From NCBI GenBank assembly GCA_029263175.1, contig JAJCXZ010000036.1, positions 1 through 51,057 on the forward strand: a DNA stretch of 51,057 nucleotides, given 5' to 3'. The translations under genes were made by a program, and so were the position numbers. This DNA is from Acidimicrobiales bacterium (GTDB taxonomy: Bacteria; Actinomycetota; Acidimicrobiia; Acidimicrobiales; Aldehydirespiratoraceae). Shown one piece after another: positions 1,883 to 49,383 of this stretch (positions are counted from its first letter, which is position 1; each line of letters begins with the position of its first letter). The notes beneath the pieces are model-generated. The model had not been told where the DNA came from, did not search any database, and worked only from the letters and a program-made list of their open reading frames with translations.

Positions 1883-2695
1883 TCAGTCTTGCCTCTGTTG
1901 GAGGATTGCGCTCATCGTGTCGGCCACGCGCCGAGTTCCCCCCGTATCGTGCGCTCGCAGGATCCGACACCCGAGGGCTATCCCGAGCGTGTGTGCACCC
2001 CAGCTGGCTTCGCGGCGATCGTCGACTCCGGTTCCGGCGACGTCACCGACGAAACCCTCGTTGAACGCGGAGACAAGCACGGGAAACCCCAGGTCAACGA
2101 GGTCGTCGCTGTGGCGGAGTAGCTCCAGGGACATGGAAGGCGGCTTGCCGAGATCCAGACCGGCGTCGACCATGATCCGTTCGTCGGGTATGCCCGCGGC
2201 TTGGGCCCATTCGGCACGGACACGAAGGAAGTCGGTGACCTCGGACCGGACGTTGGTGAAGTTCGGTGCCGGATCCGGGACAGGCGGGCCTCTTCGCCCA
2301 TGGGTTGCCACGACCGACGCACCGTGTCGCGCCGCTACTCCCAGGAACGCCGGGTCGGAGAATCCGCTGATGTCGTTCCCTGTACAAGCACCGGCGTTCA
2401 GCGATTCCTCCAGTACGGAGGCCCTGGCCGTGTCGACCGAAATCGGTAGATCGAAACGGGCGCTGAGGGCCTCGATGGCCGGCACGACTCGCTCCAGCTC
2501 CTCCGCAACGGTGACCTCGCGCCGTTGCCCCGCCTTTGCACCGCCGACATCGAGGAGGTCGGCGCCCTCCCGCACGAGGGTGTCGGCCTGGCGAAGGAGG
2601 TCGTCGAACGACGACTCGGGCGAGCGGTGGAGAGTCGCCATCACGAGCGCTCGTGTGGTGATGTCGAATCGGGTTGAGCCCAGCTCGAGGTGCAT
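1883..2695 (-). CDS. Dihydropteroate synthase-like protein, FolP2 type
   Basis: This 270-residue TIM-barrel protein resembles dihydropteroate synthase, which joins pABA to the pterin pyrophosphate in folate synthesis. It reads ADLLDVGGAKAG near residue 45, ISVDTARA in the middle and LRAHDTGGTRRVADT near the end, all DHPS landmarks. The N-terminal signature is VMATLHRSPESSF instead of the usual MGI-NVTPDSF, and the late SRKRF-type pterin-binding loop reads SAFNEGFVG. These changes recall the mycobacterial FolP2 branch, reported to lack DHPS activity. True folate synthesis is therefore doubtful. The gene lies 11 bp after comEC and 4 bp before holA, probably in one transcript. Confidence 0.8.
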   Translation of the reverse strand: MHLELGSTRFDITTRALVMATLHRSPESSFDDLLRQADTLVREGADLLDVGGAKAGQRREVTVAEELERVVPAIEALSARFDLPISVDTARASVLEESLNAGACTGNDISGFSDPAFLGVAARHGASVVATHGRRGPPVPDPAPNFTNVRSEVTDFLRVRAEWAQAAGIPDERIMVDAGLDLGKPPSMSLELLRHSDDLVDLGFPVLVSAFNEGFVGDVAGTGVDDRREASWGAHTLGIALGCRILRAHDTGGTRRVADTMSAILQQRQD

Positions 2696-2706
2696 CGGCG
2701 GCGACC

Positions 2707-4482
2707 CTATCCGGGCGGACCCCGCCCGGGGACGCCAGCGGTCGCAAGATCGATCACATCGAGCCCGCCGTCAGTGACAATCGCTTCGACGAACAGATCG
2801 CCGATGCGGTAGTGCTCGCCCGTCCGCGCGGTCCGAGCGGCCGGAACTCTGTGCAACTCAGGGGCCAACACCGGTACGGGGCCGTATCGATCGCGGAGGG
2901 CCAGCACGAGCAGCGCATCGGCCAGATCACCGTCAGACGCCACGATCAGCGAAGGAGCCGGCATTCCCAGCCGTCGAAGCCTGCCGAGCACCGTGCGGGG
3001 ATCACCCGGATCGTCGAGCACGGCGATCAACCCATGCGCGGATGAACGCAACTCGACACCATCAACGACGTGGTGCTCGCCCGTGGCCAACTCGGGAGCG
3101 CTCACGACGGCACTGATCGCCAGTGCAACTCCCACCGCACCCACGTACCGCTGTATCTCCGGACGCGTGATCAGCAACGCCACGAGCACAACGACGACCG
3201 CGAGACCCACCCCGCCGATCATCGCCGGAGGGGCGGTGGCCGAGAGCCGAGCCACCTCGCGGATCCACCACAGCAAGAGTCGAGTCGGGAGGTGGATCAC
3301 CGTGGCCACCGGCCCACCGGCGATGCCGGCCACCAGGCCCGCAGTGCATCCCCAGATCATGACCGGACCCGACGCCGGTCCGGCCAGCAGGTTGGCCGGC
3401 AGGCTGGCCAGTGGAATCGGGCCAAAGGTGAGCAGAAGCAGCGGTGCGACGCCGACCTGTGCCGCGGCGGTGGTGGCGAAGGGAATTCGGATCACTGCCG
3501 GTCCCCCGACGCGCTCCCCCAGCGGAGCCGCCAGCCAGACAATGCCAGCGGTTGCCGCAGCAGATAGCTGGAACGCCACCACATGGGCGAGAAACGGGTC
3601 GATCACCAAGAGCACGCCCACCGCGACGGACAGCGCTTTTCGCCCATCGACGGGGCTCCCAGCACCGACCGCGCCGATACTCACCCCGGCCATCATCACC
3701 GCCCGCAGTACCGAGGGTTCGAATCGGGTCAGCACGGCGAAGAACACCAGGACGGTGCCGAGCCCGAGGATCCGAACCCCCGGCCTCGCCGTCATCAGAA
3801 GCGGCGCCACGATGGCCAGGACGAAGGCAACGTTCTGGCCAGACACGACCAGCAGGTGCCCGAGTCCTGCAGCTCGAAAATCATCGGCCACCACCGCGGT
3901 CTGCCCTCGGTCATCACCGATCACCATCCCCAGGTAGAGCGCCTGGTTGCTTCTCGACAGCGGGTCCGCTCCCTCTGAGAGCGTCTTGCGGACCCCGTTG
4001 GCCAATCGGGCGACTGGTGAACCGGGGGCGATGTCGAGGACCGCGGCGATGGTGATCCGGCCCACCTCGTGGCGCCAACGCGCCCAATCGTCGCCGGCGC
4101 GCAACGGATGGGCGGTGCCGTTCACGAACAGCTGCTCGCCCGCCAGCCGGTTCGCCACTCGGCCGGCAACTGGTCCGTGAGCGCTGATGGACACCCGCTG
4201 ACCATCGACCCGGGCGGCGGCTCGCACGCCGAACGGTCCCGCGGAACGTGGATCCTCCACCAACGTGACCCAACCTTCGAACGAGCCGGACTCCAGCGGC
4301 TCCAAACCATCGAGCGCCCGGACGCCGAGCCAGCTCGTGGCCAGGCACGCAGCCACGACGACCAGCGCTGGGCGCGGCCACCGCATGGCCGACACGGCGA
4401 CAACGAGAGCCACGGCCGACGGAATCGGGATCAACAGCCACGCGCCCACCAGCGCGCCCGCGGCAAACAGATGCGCTCTCAT
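2707..4482 (-). CDS. comEC: ComEC/Rec2 DNA-uptake channel with degenerate C-terminal domain
   Basis: ComEC forms the inner-membrane channel for single-stranded DNA during natural transformation. The 591-residue product has hydrophobic helices at the N-terminus, an OB-like soluble segment (about 65-150) and the competence-domain signature GLGHLLVVSGQNV at 206-218, followed by many membrane segments to about residue 450. Typical family members are some 700-800 residues and end in a metallo-beta-lactamase domain with an HxHxDH-like motif. Here the equivalent stretch reads LIVASDGDLADALLVLALRD, with no metal-binding histidines, and the tail is short. It overlaps comEA by four bases (ATGA), so the two are translationally coupled. 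Confidence 0.93.
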   Translation of the reverse strand: MRAHLFAAGALVGAWLLIPIPSAVALVVAVSAMRWPRPALVVVAACLATSWLGVRALDGLEPLESGSFEGWVTLVEDPRSAGPFGVRAAARVDGQRVSISAHGPVAGRVANRLAGEQLFVNGTAHPLRAGDDWARWRHEVGRITIAAVLDIAPGSPVARLANGVRKTLSEGADPLSRSNQALYLGMVIGDDRGQTAVVADDFRAAGLGHLLVVSGQNVAFVLAIVAPLLMTARPGVRILGLGTVLVFFAVLTRFEPSVLRAVMMAGVSIGAVGAGSPVDGRKALSVAVGVLLVIDPFLAHVVAFQLSAAATAGIVWLAAPLGERVGGPAVIRIPFATTAAAQVGVAPLLLLTFGPIPLASLPANLLAGPASGPVMIWGCTAGLVAGIAGGPVATVIHLPTRLLLWWIREVARLSATAPPAMIGGVGLAVVVVLVALLITRPEIQRYVGAVGVALAISAVVSAPELATGEHHVVDGVELRSSAHGLIAVLDDPGDPRTVLGRLRRLGMPAPSLIVASDGDLADALLVLALRDRYGPVPVLAPELHRVPAARTARTGEHYRIGDLFVEAIVTDGGLDVIDLATAGVPGRGPPG

Positions 4483-26562: not shown

Positions 26563-27402
26563 ATGAGTGATTCAGTTGGTCAGTACCTGAACGAGATCGG
26601 CGCTGTTGCGCTTCTCAATGCACAGGAAGAGCGTGAGCTCAGCCAAATTATCGAAAAGGGCTTCGAAGCCCGCGCCCGCAAGGACGACGGCGAGAAGAGC
26701 CGTGAGCTCGATCGTGCGATTCGCCAGGCGGCCGCAGCCAAGGACCGGTTCATCCGAGCCAACCTTCGCCTCGTCGTGAGCGTCGCCCGCCGCTATCCGC
26801 TGCCCCCCGGCATGGAGCTGCTCGACCTCATCCAGGAAGGCAACCTCGGCCTGGAGCACGCCGTCGACAAGTTCGACTGGCGCAAGGGATTCAAGTTCTC
26901 CACCTACGCCACGTTCTGGATTCGTCAGGCGATCGGCCGTGCCCTCGACCAGAAGGCCAGCCTCGTTCGTCTCCCCGGCGATCGTTCCGCTTCACTGCGT
27001 GCGGCCCTCCGTGCCGTTTCCGGCGACGGCGACGAGCTCGACGACGAGCATGCACGTCTGCACCGCCTCACCACGCCGACCAGCCTCGACCGCACCATCG
27101 GCGACGACGACTCCAACGAGCTCGTCGACCTCCTCCCCGACGCCAACCCCGGCCCGGAGGTCGAGGTCATGGCCAAGGCTGAGGAAGAGATGGTCACCGG
27201 CCTGCTCGACATCCTCGATCCGCGGGCCAAGCATGCCGTTGAGCAGCGCTTCGGTCTCGGCGACGGTCGCAAGCGTTCCTACCGTGAGGTCGGCGAGGAT
27301 CTCGGCGTTACCGCCGAGGCCGCCCGTCGCCTCGTGAAGCGTGCAATCCACACCGTTCGTGAGCACGCCGCCACAATCGCCGACACCGTAGACGCTGCGT
27401 AA
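26563..27402 (+). CDS. Sigma-70 family RNA polymerase sigma factor (group 2-like)
   Basis: The 279-residue product has region 1.2 (residues 4-35, VGQYLNEIGAVALLNAQEE), region 2 (about 61-130) with the near-perfect core DLIQEGNLGLEHAVDKFDWRKGFKFSTYATFWIRQAIGRAL, a shortened region 3 with an acidic insert (GDGDELDDEHA, 154-164), and region 4 (210-270). Region 4.2 reads SYREVGEDLGVTAEAARRLVKRA, unlike the usual T-RERIRQIE helix. Region 2.4 is close to housekeeping sigma, so -10 recognition is probably standard. Region 1.1 is absent. ATG 26563 is preferred as it starts just before region 1.2; ATG 26536 would add nine residues with CxxC. A strong terminator follows. Confidence 0.93.
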   Translation: MSDSVGQYLNEIGAVALLNAQEERELSQIIEKGFEARARKDDGEKSRELDRAIRQAAAAKDRFIRANLRLVVSVARRYPLPPGMELLDLIQEGNLGLEHAVDKFDWRKGFKFSTYATFWIRQAIGRALDQKASLVRLPGDRSASLRAALRAVSGDGDELDDEHARLHRLTTPTSLDRTIGDDDSNELVDLLPDANPGPEVEVMAKAEEEMVTGLLDILDPRAKHAVEQRFGLGDGRKRSYREVGEDLGVTAEAARRLVKRAIHTVREHAATIADTVDAA

Positions 27403-27427
27403 CCAACGCAAGCACGACTGAACTTTC

Positions 27428-27458
27428 CCGGAGCCCTCGCCACGTGCGAGGGCTCCGG
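27428..27458 (+). terminator. Intrinsic terminator of the sigma-factor gene
   Basis: A perfect 13-bp stem (27428-27440 with 27446-27458) and 5-base loop CACGT starts 26 bases past the sigma stop. It is followed by CCGTTTTC, the same tail that follows the rpsT terminator. This is the strongest single-direction terminator in the window. Confidence 0.9.
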
Positions 27459-27471
27459 CCGTTTTCGGGCT

Positions 27472-27508
27472 CTAACGCACACTGGGGACAGACCCCAGTG
27501 TGCGTTAG
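27472..27508. repeat. 37-nt palindromic repeat, copy A
   Basis: A perfect 16-bp inverted repeat (27472-27487 with 27493-27508) surrounds the 5-base loop ACAGA; the core is GGGGACAGACCCC. It lies in the gap between the sigma terminator and the DAHP synthase GTG at 27557. Copy B at 47530-47566 has the same length, the same core in the opposite orientation and similar arms beginning CTAA. This looks like a mobile or REP-like palindrome, not a gene-specific terminator. Confidence 0.8.
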
Positions 27509-27556
27509 TCGTCGAATTCGGTTGGCACTCTTGTCCCCAGACACCAGACTTGACGA

Positions 27557-28903
27557 GTGACCTCCACTTGGACCCCCAGCTCATGGCGCAATGCCGAGGC
27601 AAAGCATCAGCCGTCCTGGCCTGATCAAGCCGAACTCGACCAGGCTCTCAAGGAGCTTGGCGACATGCCACCGCTGGTCTTTGCGGGCGAGGCGCGCAGC
27701 CTCACAGAGTCACTCGGTTCGGTCGCCAACGGCGATGCCTTCCTGCTGCAGGCCGGCGACTGCGCGGAATCGTTCGACAGCTCCGCCGATTCGATCCGCG
27801 ACAAGCTCCGCGTGATCCTCCAGATGGCGATCGTGCTCACCTACTCCGGTGGAATCCCGGTCGTGAAGGTTGGCCGGATTGCCGGCCAGTTCGCCAAGCC
27901 CCGCTCGTCGGCCACCGAGATCCAGGGTGATATCGAACTTCCGTCCTTCCTCGGACAAATCGTCAACGACGTCGGCTTCACCGAGGCCGAACGTCGCCCC
28001 GATCCCCAACGCCTCCTCACGGCGTACCACCGGGCCGCGTCCACCCTGAACCTTCTGCGTGCATTCACCCGCGGCGGTTACGCCGACCTCTCGCAGGTGT
28101 CCATCTGGAACCGCGAGTTCGTGGCCTCCTCCCCCGCCGGCGAGCGCTATACCCAGATGGCCGACGAAATCGATCGTGCGCTGACGTTCATGTCCGCGGT
28201 TGGCGTCAACTCGCACACGACCCCCGCGCTGCACGAAGTCGACTTCTACACCAGCCACGAGGCCCTGCTCCTCAACTACGAAGAGGCACTCACCCGCCAG
28301 GACTCCCTGACCGGGCGCTGGTACGACTGCTCCGCCCACATGCTCTGGATCGGCGAACGCACCCGTCAACTCGACGGCGCCCACGTCGAATTCCTCCAGG
28401 GCGTCGGCAACCCGCTCGGCTGCAAGATCGGGCCGACCGCCACTCCTGGGGAAGTCCTCGACCTGTGCGAGGCGCTCAACCCCGAACGCGTGCCGGGCCG
28501 CCTGACCCTCATCTCTCGCATGGGAGCGGAGAGGGTGCAGACTGGCTTGCCGCCACTGCTCGCTGCTGTCCGCGACGCCGGTCATCCCGTCGTCTGGGCC
28601 TGCGATCCGATGCATGGCAACACCTACACGGCTGAAGGTGGCCACAAGACCCGCCACTTCGACCAGGTACTCGAGGAGATCGGTGGCTTCTTCGCCGCTC
28701 ATCGCCAGGAAGGCACCTGGGCCGGCGGAATCCACGTCGAACTCACCGGCGACTCCGTCACCGAATGTGTCGGCGGCGGTGACGACCTCGGCGAGGATGC
28801 CCTCGACCAGGCGTACGAGACGATGTGTGACCCGCGCCTCAACGGCCGCCAGTCCACAGACCTCGCCTTCCGCGTCGCCGACATCCTCCGCGGTAAGGCC
28901 TAG
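27557..28903 (+). CDS. Class II 3-deoxy-7-phosphoheptulonate (DAHP) synthase
   Basis: This enzyme condenses erythrose 4-phosphate and PEP in the first step of the shikimate pathway. The 448-residue product belongs to the plant-like class II type used by actinomycetes: GDCAESF holds the metal-binding Cys69, VKVGRIAGQFAKPRS covers substrate-binding Arg107 and Lys114, and later SHEALLLNYEEALTR, KIGPTATP, SRMGAER and CDPMHGNT are all present. The start is GTG. No chorismate mutase domain is attached. It stands alone and is convergent with a GNAT-like gene three bases past its stop. Confidence 0.97.
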   Translation: MTSTWTPSSWRNAEAKHQPSWPDQAELDQALKELGDMPPLVFAGEARSLTESLGSVANGDAFLLQAGDCAESFDSSADSIRDKLRVILQMAIVLTYSGGIPVVKVGRIAGQFAKPRSSATEIQGDIELPSFLGQIVNDVGFTEAERRPDPQRLLTAYHRAASTLNLLRAFTRGGYADLSQVSIWNREFVASSPAGERYTQMADEIDRALTFMSAVGVNSHTTPALHEVDFYTSHEALLLNYEEALTRQDSLTGRWYDCSAHMLWIGERTRQLDGAHVEFLQGVGNPLGCKIGPTATPGEVLDLCEALNPERVPGRLTLISRMGAERVQTGLPPLLAAVRDAGHPVVWACDPMHGNTYTAEGGHKTRHFDQVLEEIGGFFAAHRQEGTWAGGIHVELTGDSVTECVGGGDDLGEDALDQAYETMCDPRLNGRQSTDLAFRVADILRGKA

Positions 28904-42469: not shown

Positions 42470-42520
42470 CGAACTCGTGCAACGTCGTCCCTGTTCTCGG
42501 GACGACGTTGCACGAGTTCG
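42470..42520. repeat. Perfect 22-bp inverted repeat between the Tad unit and obg
   Basis: The arms at 42470-42491 and 42499-42520 are exact reverse complements around the 7-base loop TGTTCTC. It begins five bases after the TadG-like stop on the minus strand and ends 35 bases before the obg GTG. It can act as a terminator for the Tad unit but has no T-run. It does not share the 13-nt core of the two 37-nt palindromes. Confidence 0.82.
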
Positions 42521-47529: not shown

Positions 47530-47566
47530 ATGAGTCACGCTGGGGTCTGTCCCCGGCGTGACTTAG
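47530..47566. repeat. 37-nt palindromic repeat, copy B
   Basis: On the minus strand this reads CTAAGTCACGCC, then the core GGGGACAGACCCC, then AGCGTGACTCAT. It has the same length and core as copy A (27472-27508), and the arms agree in pattern but not in all bases. The inner arms pair over 13 positions with one G-T wobble. The element overlaps the RNase E/G stop codon: the TAA (47563-47565) is inside its left end. Confidence 0.78.
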
Positions 47567-49383
47567 TTGAGGAGGCCGTCGATGATGCGGTGACCGCGGC
47601 CCTCGCATGTGGGGCAGGGCTCGGAGACGGACTCGAGGAGGCCTTCGCCGATTCGCTTGCGGGTCATCTCGACCAGGCCGAGATCCGAGATGTCGAACAC
47701 CTGGGTCCGGGTCTTGTCCCGAGCCAACGATGATCGGAAGGTCTTGATGACGTCGTCTCGGTTCCTGGCAATCTCCATGTCGACGAAGTCGATCACGATG
47801 ATGCCGCCGATGTCGCGTAGCCGAAGCTGATGCGCCACTTCTTCGGCGGCTTCGAGATTGTTGCGGTAGACGGTCTCTTCGAGCGACGACTTGCCGACAT
47901 TCTTGCCGGTGTTGACGTCGATCACCGTGAGCGCCTCGGTGTGCTCGATGATCAGCGAGCCGCCAGACGCCAACCAGACCTTGCGGTCGAGCGCCTTGCG
48001 GAGCTGCTCGTCGATGTGCTGGCGCTCGAACAGCGGGAGACCCTCAGCCTCTTCGTCGTAGAATTCGATCCGCTCGGCCAGCGCCGGGGTGATCGATTCG
48101 ACGTAGGAACGGATCTCTTCGAACAGCTCACGATCATCGATGATCACGCCGCGAAAGTCCTTGGTGAACTCCTCACGGATGATGCGGACAGCGGCCTCGG
48201 GCTCGCGGTAGAGCAGGGCGGGCGCTTTGGTCTTCTTGGCAAGCTTCTCGATGTCGTCCCACTGAGCGAGCAGACGGGCGACGTCGCGCTGGATTTCCTC
48301 AGCGGTGACGTTCTCGGCTGCCGTGCGCACGATCACGCCGTGGTGTTTGGGCTTGGCCTTGTCGAGGATGTTGCGAAGCCGCTTGCGTTCTCCGTCGGGC
48401 AGACGCTTGGAGATTCCGTACGTGCTGCTGTTGGGCACGAGCACCACAAAGCGTCCGGGGAGGGAGACTTCCTGGGTCAGGCGAGCGCCCTTGTGAGCGA
48501 TCGGGTTCTTGGTGACCTGACAAAGGATCGACTGCTTGGCCTTCAGGATGTCTTCGATCCGCGGCTGTTCGTGCCGCTTGCCCTCGATCTCGTCAGCGTC
48601 GTATTGCACGTCGCCGCGGTAGAGCACAGCATTCTTCGGCGTGGCGATGTCGACGAACGCCGCTTCCATGCCGGGCAGCACGTTCTGCACACGCCCGAGA
48701 TAGATGTTGCCGTGGATCTGGCTGACGTCGTCCGCGGGGCGCGAGACCTGGTGCTCAACGAGCTTTCGGCCCTCCAGCGAGGCGATCTGGGTGGCGTGCT
48801 CACCGACGTGAACACACATCAGGTAGCGCCCGACTGCCTTCCCCTTGCGGGTGCGGCCGCGCCGACGTTTCAGCGTGTTCTCGTCGAGTTCGACAGCATC
48901 GTCGTTCGTGATTGCTTCGACCGGGGTCGGGGCTTGGCGGCCGCCGCCTTGGTTGCGGTTCTGGCCCTGGTTGCGATTGCCACCACCCTGACCCTGCTTG
49001 TTGTTGCTCTGGCCACCCTGGTTCTGGCTACCACCCTGGTTCTGCTGGCCACCTTGACCGCCACGGCCACGACCACGACCGCCACGACGTCGACGTCGCT
49101 TCTTGGCGCCGTCACCGCCTTCCCCGCCCTGGTTCTGCTGGCCGCCCTGATTCGGTCGGCCACCTCGGTTCTGGCCGCCGCTGGTCCCGTCGTCAGGAGC
49201 GGGTCGACTATCGCCGATCTTTGGGGCGGGACGGGAGTCGCCGACCCTCGGGATGTCTTGCGCTCCCGAGCCGGTGGCGCTGCCCTGCTTGTGTTGTTTC
49301 GGTTGTGAGTTCTCGGGCTGGTTGGGCTGCTCAGAGCCGCCCGGGCGGTCCGAGGGAGTGGATGGGGCCTGTTCGTCGGCCAT
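47563..49383 (-). CDS. rne: Rne/Rng-family ribonuclease (RNase E/G) with disordered N-terminal region
   Basis: RNase E/G cleaves single-stranded RNA in mRNA decay and rRNA processing. The 606-residue product has a long N-terminal tail (1-180) rich in Gly, Gln, Asn, Pro and Arg, with a GDSRPAP repeat (48-54, 57-63) and a KKRRRRRGGRGRGRGG stretch (94-109). The catalytic part starts near 185: S1-like segment IYLGRVQNVLPGMEAAFVDI (227-246), metal-ligand Asp489 in VIDVNTG, Asp532 in VIDFVD, and Zn-link CPTC at 590-593. The TAA stop lies in repeat copy B. Genes for the radical-SAM pair are just upstream. Confidence 0.95.
   Translation of the reverse strand: MADEQAPSTPSDRPGGSEQPNQPENSQPKQHKQGSATGSGAQDIPRVGDSRPAPKIGDSRPAPDDGTSGGQNRGGRPNQGGQQNQGGEGGDGAKKRRRRRGGRGRGRGGQGGQQNQGGSQNQGGQSNNKQGQGGGNRNQGQNRNQGGGRQAPTPVEAITNDDAVELDENTLKRRRGRTRKGKAVGRYLMCVHVGEHATQIASLEGRKLVEHQVSRPADDVSQIHGNIYLGRVQNVLPGMEAAFVDIATPKNAVLYRGDVQYDADEIEGKRHEQPRIEDILKAKQSILCQVTKNPIAHKGARLTQEVSLPGRFVVLVPNSSTYGISKRLPDGERKRLRNILDKAKPKHHGVIVRTAAENVTAEEIQRDVARLLAQWDDIEKLAKKTKAPALLYREPEAAVRIIREEFTKDFRGVIIDDRELFEEIRSYVESITPALAERIEFYDEEAEGLPLFERQHIDEQLRKALDRKVWLASGGSLIIEHTEALTVIDVNTGKNVGKSSLEETVYRNNLEAAEEVAHQLRLRDIGGIIVIDFVDMEIARNRDDVIKTFRSSLARDKTRTQVFDISDLGLVEMTRKRIGEGLLESVSEPCPTCEGRGHRIIDGLLN

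Follow-up and report, generated by a model that had tools for sequence, protein, structure and literature searches.

About 70 copies of a stop-tipped palindrome have probably spread through an Acidimicrobiales bacterium by a single-strand transposase

Introduction

The single-strand hairpin logic of IS200/IS605 transposons is established. TnpA-REP enzymes cut single-stranded REP hairpins between a C and a T beside the hairpin (PMC8266576). REPs have been described directly behind the stop codons of rayt genes (Nunvar et al., 2010; PMC2817692), and REP classes switch at orthologous transposase loci (Nunvar et al., 2013; PMC3686654). GTAG REP termini often supply TAG stops (Di Nocera et al., 2013; PMC3733652), so that stop-supplying repeats are already known. 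The repeats flanking many TIRYT genes have the motif GGGGWSAS, according to the same paper. Subclass 2.1 of TnpA-REP, whose C-termini are DnaA-like or HTH, takes in most TIRYTs, and the accessible text of that classification reports no REP-like sequences near its genes (Quentin et al., 2018; PMC6006769).

Here, we describe a 37-nt palindrome for which a first-pass annotation of the same DNA had proposed a REP/RAYT-type or other mobile origin on the basis of two copies.

Sequence data and gene calls

The window is the whole stretch of DNA analysed, 51,057 nt in length. The genome to which it belongs (G000) comprises 4.40 Mb in 111 contigs and was compared with 60 relatives (61 genomes in all), of which G001, G002 and G003 are of the same genus. 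In place of a standard gene finder, gene calling relied on a home-made codon score, for which 26 long ORFs of the window served as the training set; it was applied to G001 as well. All 68 copies of the palindrome with an exact GGGGACAGACCCC core (the ACAGA copies) were retrieved and aligned on the core.

The palindrome in the window and in the genome

Copy A (CTAACGCACACTGGGG-ACAGA-CCCCAGTGTGCGTTAG) is the perfect palindrome that the first-pass annotation had described, with 16 of 16 arm pairs around a 5-nt loop (Table 1). A sigma-factor gene, a 13-bp hairpin, copy A and a DAHP synthase gene follow one another in one direction, and copy A does not lie at the stop codon of any gene. It had been placed behind an existing terminator; the 13-bp inverted repeat is indeed there and is kept in G002 and G003, but a consensus scan of positions 27380–27700, run around copy A alone, gave no terminator-like site with a U-tail.

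Copy B had been presented as a similar element in the opposite orientation. This holds for its length, its core and its position on the minus strand, but not for its arms, which have a mismatch adjoining the core, or for its far end, which reads ATGAG and not CTAA. The translation of the RNase E/G gene (47563–49383, minus strand; assigned by Pfam RNase_E_G) ends with LLN at the TAA of this copy. Copy B is the typical copy; copy A, behind its terminator, is atypical.

Table 1
Positions of the palindromes and neighbouring features in the window
Feature	Position	Strand	Remarks
Palindrome copy A	27472..27508	+	37 nt, 16-bp arms, loop ACAGA; among 68 exact cores
Core GGGGACAGACCCC of copy A	27484..27496	+	GGGGACAG inside the core fits the published GGGGWSAS (accessible part of PMC3733652)
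13-bp inverted repeat, likely terminator	27428..27458	+	3' of the sigma-factor gene, before copy A; a neighbour, outside the element
Palindrome copy B	47530..47566	-	Core as in copy A, arms imperfect
TAA stop of RNase E/G gene	47563..47565	-	Supplied by copy B through its CTAA tip

With up to one mismatch, the 13-nt core was matched twice in the window (mean in shuffled sequences 0.19; 1 shuffle in 100 reached two), already an uncommon number for a single window. No Rfam family reached its gathering threshold in the part of the window searched (26000–51057). A perfect hairpin of a different kind (arms of 22 bp, loop of 7 nt) is present at 42470–42520, where it separates a gene for an Obg-type GTPase from a Tad-like gene; no second copy of it was found in the window at up to three mismatches.

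Exact GGGGACAGACCCC cores numbered 68 in the genome and the reversed-pattern control gave 0, which rules out chance as the origin of the copies. The TCAGA form of the core (GGGGTCAGACCCC) was found 25 times. The commonest arm among the ACAGA copies is CTAACGCAC[AG]CT and a second set has AAGTCACGCT or AAGTAACGCT; the TCAGA copies mostly have TTGAAAC-type arms, with the CTAACGCAC arm in three of them (L170, L178 and L182). In 132 unique arm pairs, drawn from 183 copies of two species, 68% of the cells were Watson–Crick pairs, compared with 49% (maximum 53%) when partner arms were shuffled among the copies. Arms that vary and still pair had been taken as a sign of selection on the fold. The variation lies mostly between arm families within the genome and between species, and so does not by itself show such selection.

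In one copy of this genome (L011), and in G001 at the orthologues of L042, L053 and L010 (L118, L099 and L113, respectively), the loop contains an insert of 20–25 nt with a TCGCTGCGA-like motif. These inserts look as if a second small element had targeted the palindrome loop.

The transposase gene and its distribution

A Y1_Tnp search of the genome identified one intact gene (G000:C81; 275 amino acids, 34.4 bits against a cut-off of 23) and a broken remnant on C111. The intact gene is flanked by two inverted copies of the palindrome. The downstream copy provides, with one tip, the TAA at which the transposase gene stops and, with its other tip, the stop codon of a convergent HhH-GPD gene, so that two genes end in a single element of 37 nt.

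Among named models, NCBIfam REP_Tyr_transpos fitted the protein best (NF047646; E = 7.3e-14, 51.9 bits, below the cut-off of 80), while the NCBIfam IS200 model scored 12.3 bits (cut-off 55). As a single sequence the protein found a weak, irrelevant match alone in the PDB. A profile of 15 homologues (omitting L062 and L066, which are short or broken) performed better: its N-terminal part matched the TnpA-REP structure 4er8 (E = 2.5e-4) and its C-terminal part DnaA (8btg; E = 3.4e-4). In single-sequence searches Pfam Bac_DnaA_C was matched by two of the 15 homologues (best E = 0.0047) and not by the protein of this genome. The HuH residues H60 and H62 are invariant in the 15 homologues and the catalytic Y83 is nearly so. 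A single-sequence structure prediction for the G001 homologue was set aside (mean pLDDT 39.9).

Of 21 transposase match rows, 17 were used as homologous loci, omitting L073 and L077 (G027) and L074 and L078 (the remnant in this genome). Cores were present on both sides of the gene at 11 of these 17 loci; the other six had no recognisable core on both sides. At six of the 17 (L060, L061, L064, L069, L070 and L072) the stop codon of the transposase gene itself is in a palindrome or at its edge.

The 25 copies of the TCAGA family (L159–L183) share the genome with just one intact transposase gene, so this family may have lost an enzyme of its own. Upstream of the transposase gene in L041 (about 2430–2959, minus strand) is a UGSC-family gene, identified from the part before an in-frame TGA; GSC codons follow, as for selenocysteine, and the frame past the TGA reaches, by eye, the TAA at the tip of the palindrome upstream. 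A tRNA-Sec above the cut-off is present in the genome.

A transposase match was obtained in nine of the 61 genomes, and all nine hold between 14 and 150 cores, both exact forms counted (G000, 93; G001, 150; G002, 40; G010, 79; G027, 64; G032, 92; G036, 57; G042, 14; G060, 69). Among the 52 genomes without a match, G003 holds 12 cores and every other genome at most one. The association between a match and at least ten cores is strong (Fisher p = 5.8e-10, 61 genomes), with G002 counted as a match despite an apparent frameshift past about residue 181.

Palindrome tips as stop codons

The 68 ACAGA copies have 136 ends, and by the codon score a coding frame runs into 110 of these. In 56 of these 110 genes the stop falls exactly on the tip codon (element bases 2–4; 50 TAA, 4 TAG and 2 TGA); six stop at another TAA of the arm, 42 outside the palindrome, and six run past it. 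The entering frame was the right one for the tip stop in 56 of 62 genes, compared with an expected one third (p = 1e-20, binomial, omitting the six ends with a stop at another TAA of the arm). TAA makes up 56 of the 66 stops at -2 to +5 of the palindrome edge and 18 of 137 background stops (p = 8e-24). Most 5' tips read CTAA, and one in 68 reads GTAG. The stop rule is kept with other letters in the TCAGA family of this genome (tips CTGA-GTTG and CTAG-TTG) and in G001 (CTGA-GAAAG and CTAG-AAAG). When the four sets were taken together, no more than 173 of 289 gene-bearing ends had a stop at -2 to +5, and copy A has none there.

A mechanism may be proposed for this coincidence. The transposase would recognise the single-stranded hairpin through the GGGGACAG core and cut between C and T beside it, as TnpA-REP of E. 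coli and Stenotrophomonas does in vitro. The strand of the element that starts with TAA (TGAG or TAG in other families) would then be joined where a gene ends with a C followed by the T of its stop codon, and an in-frame stop would thereby be regenerated, which fits many of the junctions. A gene arriving from the opposite side would be served in the same way by the corresponding tip of the complementary strand. With a stop codon at each tip, landing on the stop of a gene would be harmless; insertions that break genes would be lost, so that copies would accumulate in the short spacers that separate convergent genes.

The bases before the stops weaken the cutting step of this scheme, since three of the four sets showed no clear enrichment of C before the stop (15/28, 32/57 and 14/22, against a background of 64/137); in the fourth it was found in 56 of 66, but there the C belongs to the palindrome. 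These near-background counts favour an explanation by selection alone, to which we give somewhat less than an even chance: the element would insert widely with no preference for stop codons, and the surviving copies would be those at gene ends, mainly those at which the tip restores an in-frame stop. The 42 genes that stop outside the palindrome are what plain intergenic insertion would give, and REPs of other bacteria also lie near gene 3' ends (accessible text of PMC3733652). The coincidence is polar, however, with stops at -2 to +5 in 104 of 150 5' ends and 69 of 139 3' ends (p = 7.6e-4 for the four sets pooled; significant singly in the ACAGA set of this genome alone), which speaks against a mere filter, as do the sites described below.

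Filled and empty sites

Seven clear cases were available in which a filled site could be compared with a palindrome-free relative, codon positions being judged by eye: L028 with G003, L027 with G012, L162 with G001, L056 (minus strand) with G002, L044 with G001, and two G001 sites (L188:4447 and L113:10029) with the genome of the window. The stop is at the identical codon in filled and empty site in six of the seven and one codon off in L162. Random landing in the neighbourhood of gene ends would not give so close an agreement. The bases between the two stops in L028 are replaced, not merely split, relative to the empty site. At the empty site of L162 two convergent genes share one CTAG, and in the comparison of L044 with G001 the next gene differs. 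L025 and L007 were unusable as empty-site comparisons, and some sites classed as lacking a core hold decayed palindromes.

Directly visible by comparison are many near-identical copies, the close co-occurrence of transposase and core, filled and empty sites, the often exact coincidence of tips with stops and the agreement in stop codon position between filled and empty sites. From such comparative sequence evidence, we consider it rather likely that the single Y1/HuH transposase, encoded by G000:C81, spreads the palindrome as a REP-like mobile element that is non-autonomous and of the TIRYT type. Points that count against this reading are the gene-bearing ends without a stop at -2 to +5, the replaced bases at L028, the six transposase loci without recognisable cores on both sides, the 12 cores of G003 in a genome with no transposase match and the apparent frameshift of the G002 match. 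The number of copies, the Y1 gene flanked by inverted copies, the co-occurrence and the fit of motif and profile together support the REP/RAYT reading of the first-pass annotation, with a correction: the element fits a TIRYT/TIRtron-class variant that lacks the GT[AG]G tag (accessible parts of PMC3733652 and PMC6006769). The many copies, their mapping to gene ends and the IS200/Y1-type gene with copies on both sides are as that annotation had anticipated. It had also named two observations that would count against mobility, a genome with just the two copies and copies fixed in place without arm variation; neither was found.

Arm turnover between species

For 26 of the 93 copies in this genome an orthologous junction was located in the G001 stretches examined, with flank identities mostly of 75–85%. 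These stretches (L081–L120 and L153–L155) were mostly picked around ACAGA copies, and the eight of the 26 junctions with an exact ACAGA match there were classed as biased. Arms were scored as different when they agreed at under 18 of their 24 letters. The 18 unbiased junctions comprised 11 with the same core and different arms, two with a loop insert, one (L040) with another palindrome by eye and four with none. The eight biased junctions were divided equally between the same arms (one with a flipped loop) and different arms. For TCAGA cores the orientation label in this comparison cannot be relied on, since such a core and its reverse are one base apart.

A palindrome is thus present in G001 at 14 of the 18 unbiased junctions (one of the 14 by eye). 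Such retention would be expected if the host kept the hairpins as bidirectional terminators or stop cassettes, ending transcription and translation between convergent genes, the link to the transposase being historical. Copies do sit between convergent genes, and copy A folds strongly on both strands (-30.4 and -30.9 kcal/mol). Nevertheless, we judge this explanation improbable: copy A has no U-tract and already stands behind another hairpin, and the copies track the transposase, 51 of the 52 genomes without a match having at most one core.

At six of six sites with TTGAAAC-type arms in this genome (L161, L164, L165, L166, L174 and L177), G001 has TTGGGAC-type arms (one-base variants included) and a TCAGA core, and L174 has a gap of exactly 37 bases in both species. 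The site of copy A has three arm types across four species, with CAAGACAC-type arms in G002 and G003 and AGAAAGCACGCT arms in G001 behind the same sigma gene; no palindrome is present at this site in G004. These patterns are what would be seen if palindromes were rewritten in place, taking on, in a manner resembling gene conversion, the arm type present at the active transposase locus; this would add to mobility and not replace it. We regard such rewriting as a tentative, rather doubtful possibility. Hot-spot re-insertion could produce the same picture, as could the drift of one family through paired changes; intermediates were not observed; and in the 'orthoswitch' model new arm types spread from the transposase locus while old copies decay (accessible text of PMC3686654). 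The chance co-occupancy baseline is too small to help: none of four convergent junctions empty in this genome and with a G001 orthologue was occupied in G001, out of 25 convergent junctions in 131 kb (the window and L184–L187, four of the five stretches having been picked for palindromes). Equally speculative is the fuller scheme in which the stop-codon sites are fixed and an arm change at the transposase locus is copied genome-wide by transposase-driven conversion, so that sites, stops and core would be kept while the arms switch and still pair.

Two further observations on orthologous sites were made. At L024 and at the minus-strand site of L056 the arms are similar to those in G001 (L096 and L091, respectively) and the loop is flipped (ACAGA and TCTGT), which suggests inversion or re-insertion in the other orientation. 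At the site of copy A in G010 (L145) and G012 (L142), unrelated long hairpins lie between the sigma gene and its terminator.

Comparison with known systems

No paper containing the exact core strings was found in the literature search, and none on stop-codon palindromes in Acidimicrobiia was among the matches listed, most subscription papers being outside the search. Within the literature searched, as far as its accessible text goes, we met neither a tag-less, doubly stop-tipped, high-copy palindrome with a TIRYT-class enzyme nor same-site arm switching. The element would extend REP/RAYT-like biology to the Acidimicrobiia with a TIRYT-type enzyme, and would tie high-copy palindromes to a transposase class reported, in the accessible text of PMC6006769, without nearby REP-like sequences. 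The stop codon at each tip gives a concrete explanation of how a densely coded genome can accommodate a mobile repeat, and the same-site, switched-arm pattern would make REP class change ('orthoswitch') directly testable.

Intrinsic terminators differ from the palindrome in the U-tract, which does not follow the hairpin of copy A, the one copy examined for it. The transposase shares the Y1_Tnp domain with IS200/IS605 elements; unlike these, it is encoded by a single-copy gene (one intact, with remnants) that is accompanied by many palindromes. GTAG REP/RAYT systems (REPtrons) have in common with the present one short high-copy palindromes, copies that flank a Y1 transposase gene and a location near gene 3' ends, but the GT[AG]G tag at the foot of the hairpin is lacking here, and the stop usually found at the tips is, on both strands, TAA and not the TAG of GTAG REPs. 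The closest system is TIRYT/TIRtron (probably TnpA-REP subclass 2.1), with which the locus shares a Y1/HuH transposase with a DnaA-like C-terminus and inverted GGGGWSAS repeats, here GGGGACAG or GGGGTCAG. The repeats described here are set apart from TIRs by being nearly perfect palindromes, by their high copy number (68 and 25) and by the stop codons at both tips, a feature that the accessible text of PMC3733652 does not mention for TIRs.
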